From NCBI GenBank assembly GCA_030430575.1, contig JAUIKF010000035.1:1-64000 (forward strand): 64,000 nt of DNA. Direction: 5' to 3'. Below the pieces are notes generated by a model. It did not search any database. It was not told where the DNA came from and saw only the letters and a list, made by a program, of their open reading frames with translations. Each line of letters begins with the position of its first letter. Within the stretch, counting starts at the first letter, position 1. The DNA is from Bacteroidia bacterium (GTDB lineage Bacteria; Bacteroidota; Bacteroidia; J057). Made by a program: the position numbers and the translations under genes. This document shows positions 119-57,585 of this stretch, piece by piece.

Positions 119-3100
119 GGTATAGATGAACAAGGCTCGCACGATCCAAAACGGCCTTCACGTAGAACCAACCTTGATTGGGATTTGGGAATACGGTGAG
201 GTTCAAGGCGAGCTCCTTATCAATGGAGACGGTCACGAGCAAAATATCTGATGACTCAGAAGGGCAGGGGCCGTTAAAAACAACTACCTGATAGCTTCCT
301 GTATCGCTGAAATGAATGCTTTGTGTACTATCGGGTAATAGCAGGCCATTTAAGAACCATCGGTAGGTGTTTCCTGTGATTGTACATCTCAGAGAATCTT
401 GATCCCTGATAATCAGCGGTTTAGCTGGCAATGGAATTTGGGTAAGGTGCACACTATCCGACCGCACACTTTCGCATCCCAAGCTGTCTATCCCTTTCAC
501 CCAAAAGCTTCCTGATTGTCCTATCAAAATGGCGACAGTTGTATCTCCTGTAGACCATACATAACGGTCATAGAGGTGTTGACTCATCAGCACAATGCTA
601 TCCCCTTCACAGAAGCTGGAATCTCCTGGCCAAATGACGGGCTGGGCTGGTAGGGGATTATTTGTAATGAGGATGCTCGTTGAGGCAGGGCTTACGCATC
701 CGTTGGAATCAATGACGGTGACGTCAAATGTGCCGCTGCTCCGCACGGTGATGCTGTTGGTGGTGTCCCCACTCGACCAGGCGTATTGCGCGAGTCCGCT
801 TGTCGTAGACAGGCTTACGCTATCTCCATCGCAGAATGCGGTGGGACCGCTGGCGGTGATGGTTGGCTGGGCTGGTAGTGGATGTTGAGTAATGTTCACA
901 CTCGCCGATACGGGACTTACGCATCCGTTGGAGTCGATGACAGTGACGTCAAAGGTGCCACTGCTGCGCACAACGATGCTGTTTGTGGTGTCCCCACTGG
1001 ACCAGGCGTATTGCGCAAGTCCGTTTGTCGTCGACAGGCTTACACTATCTCCATCGCAGAATGCGGTGGGGCCGCTGGCAGTGATGGTGGGCTGTGCAGG
1101 CAGTGGGTTTTGGGTAATGCTAATGCTCGCCGAAACGGGGCTTACGCATCCGTTGGAATCGGTGACGGTGACGTCAAAGGTGCCACTGCTGCGCACAACG
1201 ATGCTGTTTGTGGTGTCCCCTCTGGACCAGGCGTATTGTGCAAGTCCGTTTGTCGTCGACAGGCTTACACTATCTCCATCGCAGAATGCGGTGGGACCGC
1301 TGGCGGTGATGGTTGGCTGGGCTGGTGTTTGGGCAATTTGGAACAAACCAGTTGTATCCGAAATCTGACCGTCAGTGCTTGTGATGGCAATGAGGTAATT
1401 TCGGGATGCAACGGAGGAACCAGGAATCGTCCAGGTAAAGGAAGAATCGGTAGCTGTCACGTTGGTAGCAATGAGGCTATACGTATTACCGCTATCTGCT
1501 GAAACCGACAAGTCAACTGCCTGAACCACAGCGCTTTTCCACTGAATATTCATCGTTGTTCCCGTACAATATATGTCCCCAGCAAGTGGACTTTGAAGGG
1601 CTAAAACAGTTTTTATGGCTGTTTTACAGGTATCTCCCATTTGCTTCAATCCTTCTTCATTCCCCACATAATCATGGGCAATCGAATAAAAACAGTAGGT
1701 GTCACCTGTTTGACCTACATACGTTACCGATGTATCAATCGGAACATTTGCCGCTTCCAGCACAAGTGGCCCTCCATTTTTGCCCACATATATATCAAAA
1801 TTGGCTACGCCTACGCCGTCTACATCATCTGATGCGTCACAATGGAAATGGTAGGTCGAATCATTTAGCACAGAATCTAATACCAAAGTCGAAACGGGCG
1901 CTACCGCATCGATCACATTGACATAAGTATTGGTTTCAATAGGGGCATTGGCGTCAAAAATGATTTCTGCCTGAGCAGCAATGCTGTCTCCTGTGACCAC
2001 AGAAGACTTGGGCAAAATCGTGTAGTGCACATACCCTTCTCCATTGCCTGTGGTGTCATTGATGGCTAAGAAGCCATCAAACGGATTGTAGGGCGGAAGA
2101 CCAGTAGCTCTATCAATGGCTTGGAATACCCAGAAAACTTCGTTTTGCGTGAGGTCGATACCTGCGGTCACTTGCACGTCTACGCCAATAGAATCTGTCA
2201 GATTGAGCACGGTTGTATAATTGCTGCTATTGGGCGGAACTTGGAAGTCGAAACGACCAAATCCATAGTCTCCCAATCGGAAACGTAGGGGATTCACCTT
2301 GACATCCAACGGCTGACGGATGGTGACCCGCTGGGCAGGTGCTGACGCAAATGAAGAATCGTTTTCAAAGGAAATTTTATAGTCCATGACTGCATCAGCC
2401 TTCACCCAATGGCTCGCGCCAAACCCTACAGGTCCTCGAATTTCATTGGGGTCACAGGAACCCACCACAGGTATTTTTCTACACATAAATCCTCCACACC
2501 CGACAATAGCACTGTAGGCGTCCCCAAATCCCACGCTGCCTGTGACGGCATCGATGCCGCCAAGGATACATCCGATCCCATTGGTCAAATCATTTCCGCC
2601 ATCTACACAATTGTAAATGCCCAATAAGCAGGTGCCACCAGCAAATGCAAGCCCACCCAAGCCGCCTGTTGGGCCGCCGAGGAGGAATCCAGCTCCGCCG
2701 TATTCAAAGATATTTTCGATACACTGCCAACTGGTAGTTCCACATCCAGCCGACCGCCAGTAGGCATCACAGAACCTTTTTAGAGAAGTATCTAAAGGCA
2801 CACACGGCGGATCCCCTGGTCCGATAGGGCCTGGAGGGAATGGTCCTGGGCCAAAGGGCGGGAAGGGAGGAAATGGATTAATTGGCGGCGGACCAAAATA
2901 GGGCGGTGGCGCGGGTTGGTTGGGGACATAGGGCGCTGGGCCTGTTGGATAGGGGCCGGGATAAGGACCTGGACCCGCCCAAGGGGTGGGGTTGGGTAAG
3001 GGGCTGGGGCCAGGAACGGGCGGACCGTTTGGACCGGGGAAAGGCAATGGTCCTGGAGGAAAGGGACCCGGACGTGGGCCAGGGCCTGGACCAGGGAATG

Positions 3101-6100
3101 GAGGTCCATCAGGACCGTCAGGGCCTGGCCTACCGGGAGGGGTACTAGGACCGCCTGGGCCACCGGGTCCACCAGGACCGCCAGGCATGCCTGGCTGGCC
3201 TGGACCACCAGGGACGCCGTCTTGTCCGACCCCTGGGATAGGTGCTTCAAAACACAGAAATAAGGTGTCTGTTCCTCCCAATCGCAAGTAAAAGCGTCCG
3301 CCATGTAGGTTGTTATATTGCTCAAAGCGACTTTGATCAATCACAAATTTGCTGGTATCAAAGCCCGTAATGCCACTGTCTGCAATGGCAATCGGCCAGC
3401 AGATGTCATAGCCTGGGGCCCAGGTCGTGAGGAAGCTTGGGGCCTGATTGTAGCTACTGAGAGAAGACATCTCCAGAACAAAAGGATTTGTGGCAGTGGC
3501 TGTAATGTCAATGCGCCCACTGCTGAGGACCAAGTCCCATCCATATAGGGCATGTCCTGCGACCCCAGTAGGATGAGAAATCTCCCATCGATAGTCTTCA
3601 TCGGCACCCCATTGCAAATGGTCGCCTGTATAGATACCTGGCCCAAATCCTGGGCTAAATGCGTATTCCGAGTCACCACAGCCATTGCAGTGGCTAAGGT
3701 CCATCAGGGCCACTTCTTGTGGGGTGAAGATGTTATTCAGGTAAAAAAATCGAAATACCGAGTCTCTATAGGCAATCGGGTCTTCTATCAAAGGGAAAAG
3801 GTAGGGATGGTCTTGCAGAGCCGCAGGATTGGAAATCAGAATTTGCCGTTGTTTTTCGATGTAATAAGCGGATTCTTGGGCAAATTGCTCTTTCCCATAA
3901 GAAATAGCGCGCGCACGGATGGGGAATTCGGAGAATTTGAATCCACTCAACCCAAATTCTACTTTGACCTTTTCACCTGGCGAAAGGGCCTCTATCAGTA
4001 AAGGAATGTTGATGTGAGGGGGAGAAATCATATAGTCCTTGGCTGGGAAGCGCGAAGTATCAACTAATTGGGTGATTCGTCGGACCTTCCCAGAAGTTTT
4101 GATCCAATCTACCTTCACAGAACCTGCAAAGCTCACCTCTCCCTTGGCAATTGGGATGTCTACGTTGCAAATATTCTCAAACTCAATGGTAAACAGTGCA
4201 TTCCGCTTCAGACGGATGACGTTGGGTACTGCTTCATGTATCGCAAATTCGAAGTCTAACGCGGGTTCCACGGTTAGGCCATTGGGCAGGGTAACCTCTG
4301 AGCTGTCGGGGTTGATCACCACAACATCATACGTTCCGATAGCCACGCTATCGAGCTGCCAGCATACGGCAAGTTGCATGCTGTTGATATACTGTTTCAC
4401 AGTGCCAGTCGTCACTGAGTCGCCCATGCCATCGCGGAGCATGACAGTCAGTCCTGGGCGGAAGCCCGCGCCGAGGAGTTGGGTGGTCACTTTGCCTTGG
4501 CCGACGCGGTTGGGTGTGACAGAAAGCAGCGAGAAGGGGAGGGTTTGTGCCAATATTTCGACTTCCTGCCCGCCTGGTACCCTGGCTGATGTCTGAGCAA
4601 GGATGTAATAGCTGCCTGCCTGCGTATTGGGAATGATCAGTTGATGATTTCGACTAAAGGTCTGTCCATGTGAATAGTCAAATTGTGTAGCACTGGGGGT
4701 TTGATTAAAGGAAACATAGAAACTGTTGTGACCTTGAGTAGCTGGGCTGGTCAGGGTGACCAATAAGTCCAGTCCCGCCCCAACGGTTACTTTATAATAC
4801 ACCCAATCTCCTGGATTCAGGTCTGCCGTGTCAGGAACATTAATGGCAAGGATCTTAGCGTCAACAAATACCTGATTGCCAGCCACTTGTGTATTATTAC
4901 TTACATCACTTTCTGGGACGCCATTCAGCGTATTTGTTAAGACCAATCCATGATAATAACCTGAATCCAATTGCTTGACAGTCCCTTGAATCATGCGCAT
5001 CAGCGAATCGCCTGATGGGAGGGCAATGCCACCACTCCTTGTACCCAGCAACTCATCCGAAAAGCCATCAAATTGGGTGTCCAATGAGAAATGAAAGGCA
5101 TCTTGCAGATGGCCGCGAGCGGTCGCAGAACCCGTATTTTTGACCCAATATTTCACTGTATCTCTTGCTCCCAATTGCATCGAATCGGGGAGCTGAATGG
5201 CTTGTACAGTCAAATCTGCCATTGCCAGATTAGGTGGGAGGATGGTGACCAGGGTAGCCGTTTCATTGCTAAATACATCTGCCCCTTCATAAATGGTATT
5301 ACTTCTGTCTGTTTCCAGCAACAAGTAATAATTGCCAGAGGCGTAGACGGGGATATTCACTAAGATGCTGTCTACATAGCTGCTATCTGCTTCCAGCATT
5401 CGCTGAATCCGCTTGTCTCCAATAGGCAGGAGCTGATTTTTCGAGCTTTGCGCCAAGGTAGGCGCATTGGCGAGGTAAAAGCGGTCACGCCAGGCCGCAC
5501 CAGCAGCTATAGGCCCATTGCCTTCATTTTTTACCTGATACCTAATCTGAATTTGCTGTCCACTAAATAGCGAATCGGGCCTTATAATGTGAATGGCATG
5601 TAGATCTGGAGCAGGCGTCTGGGTAATGGTAATGGGAGAAATCCCCAAATTATTGGAGCGGATTGTGTCTAGGGCATGCCAATAAGCATCACTTAGGAGT
5701 AGCACATAGTAATTTCCACTGATCCCATTGGGTATTTTGATACTGCGAGACTGCGTGTATGTCGTTTGAGGACTTAGCCTCGAATAGCTTTGGCGAGTTG
5801 CAATCATTTGCAGGTCACTGGCATCAAGGATGCTGTCAGTAGAAAGGTAGACTACATCCCACCAGGCGTAGCCTGCGTTCAAACTGGCAGGCCCCTGATT
5901 GAGCACCGTCCAATTGATGGAAATGCTTTGGCCTGAGCCAGCCGTAGGCGGGGTTGTCAGTTGCTGAATCGCTAGATCAGCTGTAGGAGCGGGGGGCGGT
6001 GGATTCCCGACCTGCGTACTAGGCGGTCTTGGGATCAGGTACACGCCATTGGGCTTATGATTTCGCGAATTGCCCACATTATTTCCCTCAAATTGGTACT

Positions 6101-42626: not shown

Positions 42627-44228
42627 ATGAGAACTTTGATTACTACCCTCAGTTTATTCATACTTTTTGCCTGCATTCCTCAACTACATGCCCAATCTGG
42701 GAAGAAAGAAGTAAAGTTGACGATCACCAAAGAAGTTGATGGCGTTCGGTCTGTCATTGATACCAGTTTTACGGTCAATGACCCTTCTGAAATTGAAGAT
42801 GTCCTCAGTGCTATGGGCATTGAAGAGCCTCGTGAAAATCAGACACTGGAGAAGAAAATTGTCATTCGCGACATAGAACAAGAAGGAGAAGTCCGGACCT
42901 CCATTCCTTATGCAACTAAGCCTATGATCGGAGTTTATTTAGAGGAATTGGATCATATTGATGATGTAGATGTCGAGGAAGGGGTCTATGTGACAGGCAT
43001 CACTGATGGAGGGGGAGCAGAGGATGCTGGGATGAGGAAAGGGGACATAATCATTTCTATAGATGGAAATAGGATGAATAGTGTGGATGACATCCATGAT
43101 TCTAAAGCCAGCCTCAATCCAGGTGACAGGGTGAATATCAGATATATTCGCGATGGTCGTGAACGGTCAGCAACAGTAGTGTTGAAAGGTAAGAAGAAAC
43201 ATGTTCATAAGCCCAAACGCCATATTACCTATAAGACGGAGAAGACTTTCTTAGGCGTAGTGCCTTATACGGTAAGTTCTGAGCGTGCCAGAGAGCTCGA
43301 TCTGCCAGAATCGAGAGGCGTTTACATTCACAGCATTGTTCGTGGACATAGTGCTGAGGCTGCAGGCCTGGAAAGAGAAGATGTTATCTATCGTATGGAC
43401 GGCACTGACATTCACACCAATGCTGATTTGACCAGAGTCCTCAAGCGTAAGAGTCCTGGAGATAGAATTGAAATTGTATACTACCGGGATGGTCGCAGAA
43501 GAAGCGTTGATGTAACCCTTGGTGGCAAAACGCAAACCCATTCTAAATGGGTAGATGAGGAAGATGCCCAGAAAGTTGAGGAAAAACGTGCCTATTTAGG
43601 CGTTTATTTGGAGTCTGCAGGAGATGATCAAGGGGTACGGATCACCCGTGTAGTGAATAACACCCCTGCTGACCGCTATGGACTGGAAGATGATGATATC
43701 ATTATTGAGATTGGTGGTAAGAGAACTCCCAATTACGCTACCTTGTCTAAAGTGCTGAGTAGCTTCAGTCCCAATGAGCGTGTGACGATTAAGTTTATGC
43801 GCGATGGAGATAGAGAAAGTGAAAATGTGGTATTGGGAGAAAAAAGCGTAGAAAAGTGGGTCTGGAAAGAGAAAATCAAGACTCAGGAAATAGACGTTGA
43901 TGTTATCCTAAAGACTTTCCCAAACAAACAAGAAGGAGCAACCTTGAAGCGTTTTTATGAAAATCCTACATTGGACATGGACGATTACCTGCTTTACCCC
44001 AATCCCAATGAAGGTTCATTCAGGTTGAGATTCTCCCCAGAAGATGAAGGACCCATCCGTATCAAAGTCTATAATGCCAATGGTCAGATTGTCTATCAAG
44101 AGCAGTTGACTGATTTTGATGGGACCTATGACAAGGAGATAGATATCTCGGATAATGCAAAGGGGATTTACCTACTCCAAATTACTCAAAATAGCCGGGG
44201 TATGGCCAAACGTGTTGTGGTCAGATAA
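42627..44228 (+). CDS. Secreted protein with three PDZ domains and T9SS type A sorting domain
   Basis: A 533-residue exported protein. A signal peptide (about 1-22) is followed by three PDZ units, each with a GVY/GVVPY/GVYLE-type binding loop and a ...GDIIISIDGNRM...DRVNIRYIRDG pattern, at roughly 100-190, 210-300 and 320-405. A charged linker follows, then a type A sorting domain (YPNPNEGSFRLRF to MAKRVVVR, about 455-533). No protease domain accompanies the PDZ units, unlike in HtrA or Ctp proteins. It could bind C-terminal tails of other surface proteins. It is followed by a terminator hairpin. Confidence 0.9.
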   Translation: MRTLITTLSLFILFACIPQLHAQSGKKEVKLTITKEVDGVRSVIDTSFTVNDPSEIEDVLSAMGIEEPRENQTLEKKIVIRDIEQEGEVRTSIPYATKPMIGVYLEELDHIDDVDVEEGVYVTGITDGGGAEDAGMRKGDIIISIDGNRMNSVDDIHDSKASLNPGDRVNIRYIRDGRERSATVVLKGKKKHVHKPKRHITYKTEKTFLGVVPYTVSSERARELDLPESRGVYIHSIVRGHSAEAAGLEREDVIYRMDGTDIHTNADLTRVLKRKSPGDRIEIVYYRDGRRRSVDVTLGGKTQTHSKWVDEEDAQKVEEKRAYLGVYLESAGDDQGVRITRVVNNTPADRYGLEDDDIIIEIGGKRTPNYATLSKVLSSFSPNERVTIKFMRDGDRESENVVLGEKSVEKWVWKEKIKTQEIDVDVILKTFPNKQEGATLKRFYENPTLDMDDYLLYPNPNEGSFRLRFSPEDEGPIRIKVYNANGQIVYQEQLTDFDGTYDKEIDISDNAKGIYLLQITQNSRGMAKRVVVR

Positions 44229-44305: not shown

Positions 44306-44809
44306 TTACTTCATCAAGTTTTTTAAGGTATCATACTCTTTGAGAAGATAAATAATCGCGCCGTCATTGTCTACTTCCAGGTCAAAGACCCCTTTTTTCT
44401 GAAGTTGCCGAAGGTAAGCTTCTGCCTGGTCTATAGGCATTTCTGTCTTAAGACAGAGTAGGGCAGGGGTAAGGCGGCCTTGCGTCTCAAGGGCGAGTTT
44501 GATGACAGCCGCATCTTTTACAGACTTTTTACGCTTAGACTTCTTTATTTCTCCGAATAATTCAGGCTTTTTCAGGTGGTATACAGTGATATTTTCGCGA
44601 TAATCATATTTGGTTTTAAATACCCCTTGATTGGCAAGTGTCCCTAATTTGATTCTTGCCTGGGTGATAGATAGAGGCGTTTTTGAGGCGAGCACAGAAG
44701 CTGTAAGCTGTCCTGCCGTCTCTTGCGCCAAGGCAATGACATCTTGCTGAGATACAGAAGCCAATGCTTCTTTTTGCTTCTTGATGTAATTCTTTAATCC
44801 CTTAAACAT
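44306..44809 (-). CDS. Repeat protein with two winged-helix-like units
   Basis: A 167-residue protein of two similar halves, each containing VIALAQETAGQLTASVLASK or VIKLALETQGRLTPALLCLK, followed by a pattern of the form (ITQ/IDQ)A...L..L...GVF. This resembles a small winged-helix fold repeated twice. It is Lys-rich, with no signal peptide or membrane segment, so it is probably cytoplasmic; DNA binding is possible. I do not recognise the family. It follows the M48-like gene in the same direction (12 bases), likely one operon with PspC. Confidence 0.7.
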   Translation of the reverse strand: MFKGLKNYIKKQKEALASVSQQDVIALAQETAGQLTASVLASKTPLSITQARIKLGTLANQGVFKTKYDYRENITVYHLKKPELFGEIKKSKRKKSVKDAAVIKLALETQGRLTPALLCLKTEMPIDQAEAYLRQLQKKGVFDLEVDNDGAIIYLLKEYDTLKNLMK

Positions 44810-44821
44810 ATCCTAAATTCT

Positions 44822-45781
44822 TTATTGTTCTATACGCTTATCATCTGTAGCTGTACCCATTTTCACTTTCATTCCACAAAAAGCACAAAATTTATCATCG
44901 ACTTCCAGGGGTTTGCGACAATGGATATTTTGGCAACGCAGCCTTGGGAGACTTCGTTCCCGTCTGAGGATGCGATCGTAGGCACCTTGTTCTACCCATT
45001 TGGCCATTTGAGCAGTTCTGATCACAGTGAAGGGCTGGTGATTGTCATTGATGGCTGCAAAGCGAATAAGGTTGTCGAATCCAGAGGACTTAAAATTGTC
45101 AAACTGTTCAGATTGTAGGAGGAAATCGTCTACGGTGACTTGGCCGTGGTACTTTCTAGGGAGACCTGCTATTTTGATAAAAGCGCTGATCGCTGTTTCA
45201 AAATCTTGGCAAGCGAGCAAGCCTGCTCTATCAGCGGTGAATTCAGACATTCTATACCAATGCATAAATGCTGCCTCCAATGGAATGGTCAGCCAGTTGC
45301 TAATCCCAAGGCTCATATCACCTGCCAACCGAGAAAGCGTCGTCAGAGAGTCCGCAATCATGCGGTAGAGGACATGGTTGCTCTTGATATGCCCCAACTC
45401 TCTCCCTATCATGAACAGGATCTCTTGAGGTTCCAATAGTTCTAAGCACCCACTACTGAGGGCAATCAATTGCTGTTTGTCCCCACTGGAATATGACCTG
45501 ATTTTATCTTCTAGAAAGATATAAAACTCAGGGACCTCCTCCATATCTAATACCTCACAAGATGAGGTAAGCATCTCAAAAAGGTCGGGAATATTTTTGG
45601 GCGTCACTTGCACATTGTCTCCCGTGTGCTTGATACGCATATAGCGCTCTAGGCCCATGTCAAGGACTTTGCGGGTGATCAAGTCGAGTCCACGCGTCTG
45701 CTGGAGGCGATCCAGCGCCCGCTTGTCAAAAGGGTGTTCATATTCTGTAGATGAAAGGCCTGTGAGATTGACTTTGGACAT
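44822..45781 (-). CDS. M48-like metallopeptidase-fold protein with altered HExxH motif and zinc ribbon
   Basis: A 319-residue protein. The centre matches M48 peptidases: FMIGRELGHIKSNHV then SEFTADRAGLLA. The first zinc His of HExxH is Arg127, while Glu128, His131 and Glu180 remain, so zinc binding and protease activity may be lost. The C-terminal 35 residues form a zinc ribbon with Cys283, Cys288, Cys299 and Cys302. A longer frame starts at 45832, but its extra residues (NPKPKTLNSKL) are a translated A/C-rich repeat, so I take the Met at 45781. Its neighbours are a PspC zinc-ribbon protein and a small repeat protein. It is probably a cytoplasmic regulator or scaffold. Confidence 0.75.
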   Translation of the reverse strand: MSKVNLTGLSSTEYEHPFDKRALDRLQQTRGLDLITRKVLDMGLERYMRIKHTGDNVQVTPKNIPDLFEMLTSSCEVLDMEEVPEFYIFLEDKIRSYSSGDKQQLIALSSGCLELLEPQEILFMIGRELGHIKSNHVLYRMIADSLTTLSRLAGDMSLGISNWLTIPLEAAFMHWYRMSEFTADRAGLLACQDFETAISAFIKIAGLPRKYHGQVTVDDFLLQSEQFDNFKSSGFDNLIRFAAINDNHQPFTVIRTAQMAKWVEQGAYDRILRRERSLPRLRCQNIHCRKPLEVDDKFCAFCGMKVKMGTATDDKRIEQ

Positions 45782-45789
45782 GTCTAAAG

Positions 45790-45870
45790 AAAGTTTTGAG
45801 TTTAGGGTTTTTGGTTTTGGGTTCAGGGGCAAAAAACAACTTAAAACCCTAAACCTAAAACATAAAACTT
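45790..45870. repeat. A/C-rich degenerate repeat with inverted halves inside the PspC/M48 operon
   Basis: TTTAGGGTTTTTGGTTTTGG on one side and AAAACCCTAAACCTAAAAC on the other could pair. It lies in the gap between the PspC gene and the corrected start of the M48-like gene. Confidence 0.7.
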
Positions 45871-45871
45871 C

Positions 45872-46321
45872 TTAGGTCTTTGCGCCACATTGGTGGCAAA
45901 ATTGGGCTTGTGGTTTTAAGGCAGTTGAACAGCTGTCACAGACTTGAAGGTCTACAAATGCAGGTTCTTCTTCCTCCTCATAAGGGTCATATTCTTGCCA
46001 CTCCTTATAGGAAATAGGGCGTCCTTGGTCCTCATGTGGAATTGCAAGTGCTAATACGAGGTAGGCTAGTAAGCCCATCCCTCCAGTCGCGATGGTTCCT
46101 ACCCCAAATCCTAGCCTCACCAAGGCGGGATTTATTTCATAATAATCTCCTATCCCTTCGCAGACTCCTGCAAGAACCCCTTCCCCCTTGCGAAGCCTTC
46201 CTCTGCCACTGAGCAAGGCTTCCGATTTGTTAATGGCATGTTTTACCCCGCCTCTGACCCGTTCGATTCCTTCTGAAGTTTGGCGGTGGCGAGTTCGGCG
46301 TTTTATTCTTTTTTGATGCAT
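45872..46321 (-). CDS. PspC-domain protein with C-terminal zinc ribbon
   Basis: A 149-residue protein. A basic N-terminus (RIKRRTRHRQ) is followed by a PspC domain (about 47-95: GEGVLAGVCEGIGDYYEINP, then a hydrophobic helix LLAYLVLALAIP), and a zinc ribbon with Cys128, Cys131, Cys142 and Cys145 at the end. PspC proteins sit in the inner membrane and sense envelope stress or bind regulators. The open frame extends to 46393, but the Met at 46321 fits better with the domain and leaves a divergent promoter gap. It is first in a likely operon with the M48-like and repeat proteins. Confidence 0.85.
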   Translation of the reverse strand: MHQKRIKRRTRHRQTSEGIERVRGGVKHAINKSEALLSGRGRLRKGEGVLAGVCEGIGDYYEINPALVRLGFGVGTIATGGMGLLAYLVLALAIPHEDQGRPISYKEWQEYDPYEEEEEPAFVDLQVCDSCSTALKPQAQFCHQCGAKT

Positions 46322-46385: not shown

Positions 46386-47870
46386 ATGTGCATGCTTAAA
46401 CAAAGCTATACCCATAAGCTAGGATTGCTATTGCTTGCTGCCGCTTGCTACTTCCCGATCTTCCTCCATTTAGACAGTTTTCCAATCTATCTATGGGATG
46501 AAGCCCGGGCTGCTAACAATGCCTTCGAAATGATAGAAAATGGCAATCTTATTGTCACTTATTATAACGGAAGGCCCGATATGTGGAATAGCAAGCCAAG
46601 CTTGCTCCCTGCACTTCAGGCGGGAACAATGCTGCTTTTAAAAAATAATGAACTGGCAGTTCGGTTGCCTGGTGCATTGGTAGCTATTTTTACCCTGATA
46701 TTACTGTTCCATTTCTGTAAAAAACACCTAAAAATAGAAGAGATAGGCATATTGGCAGTGCTTGTGTTGGTGGTGAGTCCTGGGTACGTAGGGTTACATG
46801 TGGTGCGGTCAGGGGATACGGATGTGCTATTGGTAGGATGGGTCACCCTTTACTCACTTTCCTATTTTCGCTACCTCCATCAGCCCGAAAAACGGTTTTT
46901 GTGGGGCATATTCCTTGGCTTATTACTTGGAGGCCTGACAAAAGGTGTTGCTGCCTTTATGCCTTTGCCAGGCTTGCTGATATACACATTGATAGCTGGG
47001 AAAGAGGTGCGTAAGAAGCTTTTTGACAAGCGTCTATATATAGCAGGAGGATTGGCATTCATGGGAATTTTGGGATATTACTTTCTGCGGGAGCAGATGA
47101 ATCCAGGATATTTAATCAAAGTGTGGGAAAATGAATTGGGTGGACGCTATATGCGAACGGCAGCAAGCTTGGAAGCCGTGAATTATGACTATGGTTATTA
47201 CTTCAAGCGGATGGTGCAAAACCGATATCCAGTTTTGATTTATCTCCTGCCTATCATGGCCCTATTTGCGCTTAGGGCTGCCAATAGAAATATCCGCCAG
47301 GTAGCCCTATTTTGTGTAGTATTCTGTGGATGCCTCTTGGTGATCCTGTCTCAGTCTACGACAAAGCATCACTGGTATGATGCGCCGCTGTATCCGATGA
47401 TGGCCTTGTTGATGGGGGGAGGATTTTGGGAAATATGCAGGAGAATATTTGCTTCATTCAGTCCGCGAAAAGTAAGGGTATTCACCTTGGCCATAGGCCT
47501 GATATTGTTGGCCCCAGCCTATAGGCACATACTCGCAAAAGTCACAGATAGACACCAGATTCGGACAACGGAACTCGAGGGAGGGTTTATGAGTCAATTA
47601 GTGGGAGAAAAATGGGCCACTTCCTATACAGTTGTGAAAGATGTCCAGTACGCTTTTCATTTGGGTCAAATTCATTTCTATCGGAAAACCATTTCCAAAG
47701 AATTTGGGCACGACATTCGCATAAAAACAGATTTGAATGGAATCAAGACAGGCGAATACCTGATGGCCTGCCAACCAGCGATAATGGAGAAATTATCGCA
47801 AAGGTTTGATTATGAAGTTATTGCGGAATGGCGAACATGTAGCTATGTAAAGATTGGTACAAAGAAGTAA
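46386..47870 (+). CDS. ArnT-like polytopic glycosyltransferase (family 39/83)
   Basis: A 494-residue membrane protein with about 10-12 hydrophobic helices. The N-terminal loop has YLWDEARAANNAFEMIENG with the catalytic Asp38 (DEA), and GRPDMWNSKPSLLPAL with a conserved substrate-loop pattern. Family members transfer a sugar from a lipid carrier onto lipid A or proteins on the periplasmic side. The specific acceptor is not clear. It is divergent from the PspC operon by about 64 bases. A nearby ATG at 46392 (MLKQ) is also a possible start. Confidence 0.87.
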   Translation: MCMLKQSYTHKLGLLLLAAACYFPIFLHLDSFPIYLWDEARAANNAFEMIENGNLIVTYYNGRPDMWNSKPSLLPALQAGTMLLLKNNELAVRLPGALVAIFTLILLFHFCKKHLKIEEIGILAVLVLVVSPGYVGLHVVRSGDTDVLLVGWVTLYSLSYFRYLHQPEKRFLWGIFLGLLLGGLTKGVAAFMPLPGLLIYTLIAGKEVRKKLFDKRLYIAGGLAFMGILGYYFLREQMNPGYLIKVWENELGGRYMRTAASLEAVNYDYGYYFKRMVQNRYPVLIYLLPIMALFALRAANRNIRQVALFCVVFCGCLLVILSQSTTKHHWYDAPLYPMMALLMGGGFWEICRRIFASFSPRKVRVFTLAIGLILLAPAYRHILAKVTDRHQIRTTELEGGFMSQLVGEKWATSYTVVKDVQYAFHLGQIHFYRKTISKEFGHDIRIKTDLNGIKTGEYLMACQPAIMEKLSQRFDYEVIAEWRTCSYVKIGTKK

Positions 47871-57557: not shown

Positions 57558-57585
57558 CCCTAAACCCTAAACCCTAAACCCTAAA
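57558..57585 (+). repeat. Four tandem CCCTAAA heptamers
   Basis: Exact tandem repeat, 11 bases before the start of the thioesterase gene. It is the simplest form of the A/C-rich pre-gene repeats in this window, and happens to match the plant-type telomere repeat. Confidence 0.9.

Follow-up and report, generated by a model that had tools for sequence, protein, structure and literature searches.

In the classical Psp system, PspC engages PspA, and to our knowledge the partners of PspC outside the Proteobacteria are largely open and metallopeptidase pseudoenzymes of bacteria have been little described. Here we analyse a 64,000-nucleotide stretch of DNA from a Bacteroidia bacterium (contig JAUIKF010000035.1, positions 1 to 64,000 of the forward strand; hereafter the window), in which a gene for a ribbon-bearing PspC protein, PspC-ZnR, lies beside a gene for an M48-like protein with Arg in place of the first His of HExxH. 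Passages of a 2024 survey (PMC11237479) regard PspC as a membrane sensor, describe PspC with an N-terminal ribbon and describe a PspA/PspAA system with a membrane-associated metallopeptidase, with the terms M48 and HtpX absent from the main text of that survey, and passages of a second paper (PMC9239133) hold that the C-terminal region of PspC matters for signalling. Dead metallopeptidase folds serve in binding and scaffolding according to passages of a review of metallopeptidase pseudoenzymes (PMC11266112), the main text of which is without the terms M48 and cyanobacter. In a limited collection, which is not proof of absence in print, no paper was found that joins PspC, M48 and a zinc ribbon, or PspC, a metalloprotease, a zinc ribbon and an operon.

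PspC-ZnR shares with PspC of the Psp system (PF04024/TIGR02978) the PspC domain and the pairing with a putative partner encoded alongside. It differs in its C-terminal zinc ribbon, in failing the PspC equivalog TIGR02978 (38.5 bits against the 104 required), and in the absence of PspA, PspB and PspF among the direct neighbours on either side, in a Pfam scan limited to those neighbours. The M48-like protein matches the M48 peptidases HtpX, BepA and Ste24/ZMPSTE24, as well as intact cyanobacterial paralogues, which we take to be linked to plant PGM48, in Pfam family and in fold, and shares with them the catalytic Glu, the second His, the third-ligand Glu and the second-shell Asp, but has Arg for the first His (6/6 readable rows of its family), a C-terminal ribbon and no strong membrane segment (top 19-residue hydropathy 1.12). 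From HtpX it differs further in falling far under the NCBIfam equivalog cut-offs (best 30.5 vs 369 bits).

We propose, with a probability that we put at roughly 0.45, that the two genes form a module in which a PspC membrane sensor docks a non-catalytic M48 scaffold through its ribbon; on this reading the pair would serve at the cell membrane as a switch or holder that does not cut. The pair is small, conserved and testable, with a changed site that seems to be held by selection.

The altered zinc site and the order of the gene pair

The M48-like protein passes Pfam PF01435 (Peptidase_M48) with 52.5 bits against a cut-off of 20.3, and its motif reads G-R-E-L-G-H, with E180 and D184 retained within S-E-F-T-A-D-R. 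In place of the HExxH of active M48 peptidases, RELGH is found in all six readable family rows, all of which also carry S-E-F-T-A-D-R with the third-ligand Glu and its E-x3-D spacing. The first-pass annotation had described just this combination, an Arg at the first His with the Glu, the second His and the third ligand kept, and RELGH with E180 agrees with it. The source genome holds 12 M48 matches, with HExxH present in all seven of the other loci fetched; among the loci read, this protein alone thus carries the Arg.

The AlphaFold2 model of the M48-like protein (pLDDT 89.2, pTM 0.84) aligns best in VIA-align 2 with BepA (Z 11.0 over 165 residues, rmsd 4.0), the putative Zn-dependent peptidase 3c37 (Z 10.6) and ZMPSTE24 (Z 10.0), followed at lower scores by the M56 protein BlaR1 (Z 9.4) and HtpX (Z 7.2). 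Foldseek returns HtpX (E 0.0046), 3c37 (0.0072), ZMPSTE24 (0.024), BlaR1 (0.025) and BepA (0.036), with no match under E 0.001, and a sequence search against solved structures gave no M48 match, just weak ones to ferritin. On the predicted model, the protein has the M48 gluzincin fold, its best structural matches being M48 proteins.

The source family comprises 13 genomes, eight of which hold the M48-like gene, including motif-less fragments at contig ends in G004 and G008. Arg127 is present in all six family homologues with a readable motif, at 50–57% identity to the window protein, and is encoded by AGA, CGG and CGC (two each), ruling out a sequencing error or a single change. Arg also stands in both matches from another family of the same class, f63 (REIAH and REVAK, codons CGT and CGG; two genomes with a match), with no match at E 1e-20 in the nine other genomes of the order. 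Across the five full-length family proteins, positions 118–141 and 167–192, windows picked by the analyst around the former ligands, are identical at 35 of 50 positions compared with 72 of 269 elsewhere (Fisher p 1.4e-8). These conserved flanks, together with the fixed Arg, suggest that selection seems to hold the changed site. Drift of a pseudogene, with function lost and no new role gained, would fit the failure to find the gene in five of the 13 family genomes, and is nonetheless highly improbable given that the five full-length copies have open frames, that three Arg codons are in use, and that conservation is strongest around the changed site.

PspC-ZnR passes Pfam PF04024 with 56.9–59 bits against a cut-off of 25. 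As the first-pass annotation had it, both neighbouring proteins end in a ribbon; the four Cys are spaced C-x2-C...C-x2-C in PspC-ZnR and C-x4-C...C-x2-C in the M48-like protein. The former ribbon is present in all six complete PspC-ZnR proteins of the family, a seventh (G010) being truncated by a contig end. PspC matches occur in 273 of 395 genomes drawn from the phylum, and in none of the 29 fetched Bacteroidota PspC loci outside the window was a C-terminal C-x2-C...C-x2-C ribbon found; among the loci read, the C-terminal ribbon on PspC thus appears confined to the source family. Both ribbons lie under the Pfam cut-offs in full-length scans. With the tails cut out and compared with PF13240 and PF13248, at least one model passes in two of five M48 tails and four of five PspC tails, the window's own two tails falling below both cut-offs.

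The pspC-znr gene is directly upstream of the M48-like gene in all six family genomes that hold both on one contig (the window's own genome and G001 to G005, of which G004 keeps only the start of the M48-like gene). The two reading frames overlap in G005 and are separated by 90 nt in the window; in G010, contig ends cut both genes, which is compatible with adjacency and does not show it. The far side of pspC-znr varies, with a threonine aldolase (by eye) in L003, L004, L005 and L007 and a glycosyltransferase in two genomes, the window's own (Pfam) and G001 (by eye). Both genes are missing together in G006, G007 and G009, all three of the genomes tested for both, which hold only another, ribbonless PspC of 241–253 aa. 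No M48-like gene was found in G011 or G012, where PspC was not searched for. Rather than His in nearly all relatives and an unconserved order, the outcome named by the first-pass annotation as speaking against it, we find Arg in six of six and the pair in order in six of six.

It is rather unlikely that the two are chance neighbours, with the pseudo-M48 protein a scaffold that works alone and PspC-ZnR a membrane protein in its own right. Adjacency is kept in 6/6 genomes though the gene beyond PspC varies (aldolase in four, glycosyltransferase in two), joint absence is seen in 3/3, and both proteins bear ribbons where the other PspC proteins examined do not. Such independence would nevertheless suit the repeat within the window gap and the loci read by eye outside the family (two f63, seven cyanobacterial), none of nine having PspC beside the pseudo-M48 gene. 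Each of the two f63 genomes has one short, ribbonless PspC on a different contig from the M48-like gene, and the Prochlorococcus genome of locus L024, the sole cyanobacterial genome searched for PspC, gave no match. PspC as a general partner of the wider M48 branch was rejected on these grounds, being unseen in the nine non-family loci and in the L024 genome.

The wider M48 branch with decayed zinc sites

A profile built from the source family (A1) matched 15 of 395 genomes of the phylum at E 1e-10, and one built from a wider set (A2) matched, at E 1e-20, nine of 395 genomes of the class; at the same threshold A2 also matched 123 of 339 genomes drawn from the phylum to which a Prochlorococcus relative belongs. 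The cyanobacterial rows aligned here are a non-random set, consisting of the best-scoring hits among those 339 genomes and 20 further places hand-picked among the matches listed. A tree of 62 rows, calculated with the five motif columns removed and with the long-branch rows L034, L035 and L054 (ligands intact) left out, unites the source family, f63, a 20-row cyanobacterial group (CyA) and L024 of the Prochlorococcus relative in one branch of 29 rows (support 98/91), the inner order of which is weak (85/49 for all except L024). A tree of 45 rows with the motif columns kept holds the same 29 rows together (98/95) and places L024 beside the source family and f63 (83/72); this set excludes matches below 60 bits (L009, L010, L036–L039), proteins shorter than 200 aa (the fragments L007 and L008, motif unreadable, and their copies), and copies sharing a 120-residue stretch, such as L078 and L091 (both GYEIARIKSQH). 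Among the matches listed in the literature search, no paper on such an M48 branch was evident from title or start of abstract.

All ligands are intact in 35 of the 62 rows (six phylum-level rows, 8 + 18 cyanobacterial paralogues, G780, L024 and L075). The 33 rows outside the branch are all intact, whilst 27 of the 29 rows within it have Lys or Arg at a ligand position, and in every one of the 27 ligand-loss rows at least one of the three ligand positions is taken by Lys/Arg. Listed as first His, Glu, second His, third-ligand Glu and Asp, the six family rows read R,E,H,E,D, and the f63 rows R,E,H,E,D and R,E,K,E,D. In 19 of the 20 CyA rows Lys/Arg replaces the third-ligand Glu; 17 of those 19 have exchanged the second His for Arg as well, and 10 of them also lack the first His. 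The catalytic Glu (E128) and the Asp (D184) are retained in 62/62 rows. The resulting motif series, HELGH, RELGH, REIAH and REVAK, with HELGH, HEVAR and YEIAR accompanying a Lys/Arg third ligand, is a natural record of how a zinc protease can lose its ligands yet keep its pocket.

CyA is the closest pseudo-M48 group for comparison, being of related lineage and likewise placing a basic residue among the zinc ligands (19 of 20 rows), but the residue replaces the third-ligand Glu and not the first His, there is no CxxC ribbon, and no PspC neighbour is seen in seven loci read by eye. The cyanobacterial pseudo-M48 proteins L064–L085 mostly end instead in a W-[ND]-F-x-x-x-W tail. The zinc site has likely decayed by at least two substitution routes, since the substitutions differ, with the first His going to Arg in one and the third-ligand Glu to Lys/Arg in the other. 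The fewest changes on the tree number two for loss of the first His, four for loss of the second and two for a basic third ligand, and two each for the characters 'any basic residue' and 'all intact'. Two CyA rows, L085 and L065 (the first branch of the group), combine a third-ligand Lys with two intact His residues, which would fit a basic residue arriving first and is no proof of it.

That the M48-like protein of the window is still an active or metal-regulated peptidase, with Arg127 as a gate and with H131, E128 and E180 binding metal in some state or together with ribbon Cys residues or a partner, is quite improbable. In its favour, E128, H131, E180 and D184 are kept in 6/6 family rows, and conservation is highest in the stretches that surround them. 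Against this, one zinc His is lost in all readable family rows, H131 is gone as well in one of the two f63 rows (REVAK), and the sister cyanobacterial rows have lost E180, with the second His gone in 17 of 20.

An analogous pairing is seen in one case. L024 combines HELGH with a ribbon at its C-terminus, and the gene that ends 13 nt upstream encodes a protein with an N-terminal zinc ribbon (Zn_Ribbon_1, 34.3 bits vs 25). L156 (G780, 2146–5136) is a 996-codon frame with an intact M48 domain, a hydrophobic stretch (by eye) and a weak double-ribbon match of 13.6 bits, under the cut-off; the gene behind it looks, by eye, like one for a dynamin-like GTPase, and the two may form a further pairing related to the membrane. 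From the contexts of L024 and L156, ribbons may accompany the M48 branch more than once.

Proposed mechanism and the evidence against it

In the two-gene module that we propose, the M48-like protein would bind no catalytic zinc and would not cut. The side chain of Arg127 would take the place of the zinc cation and pair with the kept Glu128 and Glu180, a contact that is predicted, and the pocket or its groove would bind a client or partner. A His-to-Arg change at a zinc ligand has a precedent in a carbonic-anhydrase-related protein. PspC-ZnR would sense disturbance of the membrane, and its C-terminal ribbon, presumably cytosolic as we take the C-terminus of PspC to be, would dock or release the pseudoprotease ribbon. 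Once recruited, the dead M48 protein may serve as a holder or decoy, either for exposed segments of membrane proteins or for an active protease of the M48 or FtsH type. Any likeness to PspC engaging PspA would be one of function and not of family.

In its broadest form, the idea is that the M48 branch swapped catalytic zinc for a built-in Lys/Arg cation by at least two substitutions, turning the pocket into a metal-free binding site, and that in one Bacteroidota family this site was wired by twin ribbons to PspC as a PspA-independent envelope-stress module with the dead protease, instead of PspA, as effector. This extended form, which takes up the first-pass suggestion of a new envelope-stress module, is doubtful. 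With the pair and the motif series one could ask directly whether the positive charge of a side chain can replace catalytic zinc.

Several observations weigh against the module or its extension. Besides the nine non-family loci with no adjacent PspC and the five family genomes in which the M48-like gene was not found, G008 has a C-terminal M48 fragment at a contig start with no PspC-ZnR in the assembly. Co-transcription of the pair is not certain, because the 90-nt gap in the window holds an inverted repeat. The residues His131, Glu128 and Glu180 remain and could weakly hold a metal. A double zinc ribbon split across the two proteins was considered and rejected, the tails matching inconsistent halves of the DZR model (M48 tails: first half three, second half one, unmatched one; PspC tails: second half three, first half two). 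L075, a cyanobacterial row nested in the decayed group, retains all ligands (HEAAH, AELTVDR), and may be a return, a gene conversion or an odd survival. As 'any basic residue' and 'all intact' each fit one early event followed by a return in L075, a single origin is compatible with the tree, and the decayed state may have had one early origin with that one return.

Locus layout, third gene and gap repeats

The three open reading frames of the first-pass annotation are all present on the minus strand, with products of 149, 319 and 167 aa. An alternative start of pspC-znr is possible at 46393; the ATG at 46321 is preferred because a divergent gene begins at 46386. A convergent neighbour at 42627–44228 encodes three PDZ stretches and a type IX secretion tail (Por_Secre_tail).

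Table 1. Coordinates of the gene pair, its motifs and its neighbour in the window.
Feature	Position	Strand	Basis or remark
pspC-znr gene, 149 aa	45872..46321	minus	basic N-terminus, PspC domain, acidic linker, C-terminal zinc ribbon
PspC domain (membrane segment)	46031..46186	minus	PF04024 match; single hydrophobic stretch, residues 70-96 (hydropathy windows >1.4)
zinc ribbon of PspC-ZnR, C128-C145	45887..45940	minus	6/6 complete family PspC-ZnR
pseudo-M48-znr gene, 319 aa	44822..45781	minus	PF01435 above cut-off; AlphaFold2 model; M48 fold matches
R127-E-L-G-H131, former HExxH, Arg replaces first His	45389..45403	minus	6/6 family and 2/2 f63 rows
E180...D184, third-ligand position and second-shell Asp, retained	45230..45244	minus	family alignment, 62-row set
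zinc ribbon of pseudo-M48 protein (C283, C288, C299, C302)	44876..44935	minus	C-x4-C...C-x2-C; four Cys invariant in 6/6 family rows
intergenic imperfect inverted repeat	45791..45870	no strand	33-nt arms, 76% complementary; between pspC-znr and M48-like gene
tandem winged-helix protein (predicted from model), 167 aa	44306..44809	minus	neighbour, probably outside module

The third gene follows the M48-like gene on the same strand at a distance of 12 nt. Its product passes no Pfam cut-off in the window copy, and Foldseek matches of the model m5779ecea3469 (pLDDT 79.8, pTM 0.47) are mostly winged-helix proteins, so that on this model the gene encodes a tandem winged-helix protein. It was found in four of 60 genomes, the window's own included, all within the source family (4/13). 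The homologues of G002, G004 and G005 are all at other places (L105, L106 and L107, with differing surroundings), and no homologue at E 0.001 was found in the other eight family genomes, including G001, G003, G008 and G010. Of the three-gene operon named in the first-pass annotation, the order of pspC-znr and the M48-like gene therefore stands (6/6), whereas the third gene was excluded, its three family homologues sitting elsewhere, and the conserved unit is two genes. In a three-gene cassette signalling from membrane to gene, the ribbons would contact nucleic acid or the transcription apparatus, and the winged-helix protein would deliver the response. This reading draws on the winged-helix match and the close, same-strand position of the third gene. 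It is very unlikely, as G002, G004 and G005 carry their homologues at other places and the M48-bearing G001, G003, G008 and G010 yielded none at E 0.001.

Of the gaps between pspC-znr and the M48-like gene, three were examined in the family, and their repeats differ. The window's gap (45791–45870) contains an imperfect inverted TTTAGGGTTT element; in G001 (L002:1402-1489) there is a tandem repeat with 14-nt spacing, and in G004 (L007:256-305) a palindrome with 25-nt arms that are 88% complementary. TTTAGGGTTT, a telomere-like repeat, has six copies in the window where 0.26 would be expected; they lie at 57562–57585, 45801, 45844 and 30987, and three are arranged in tandem.

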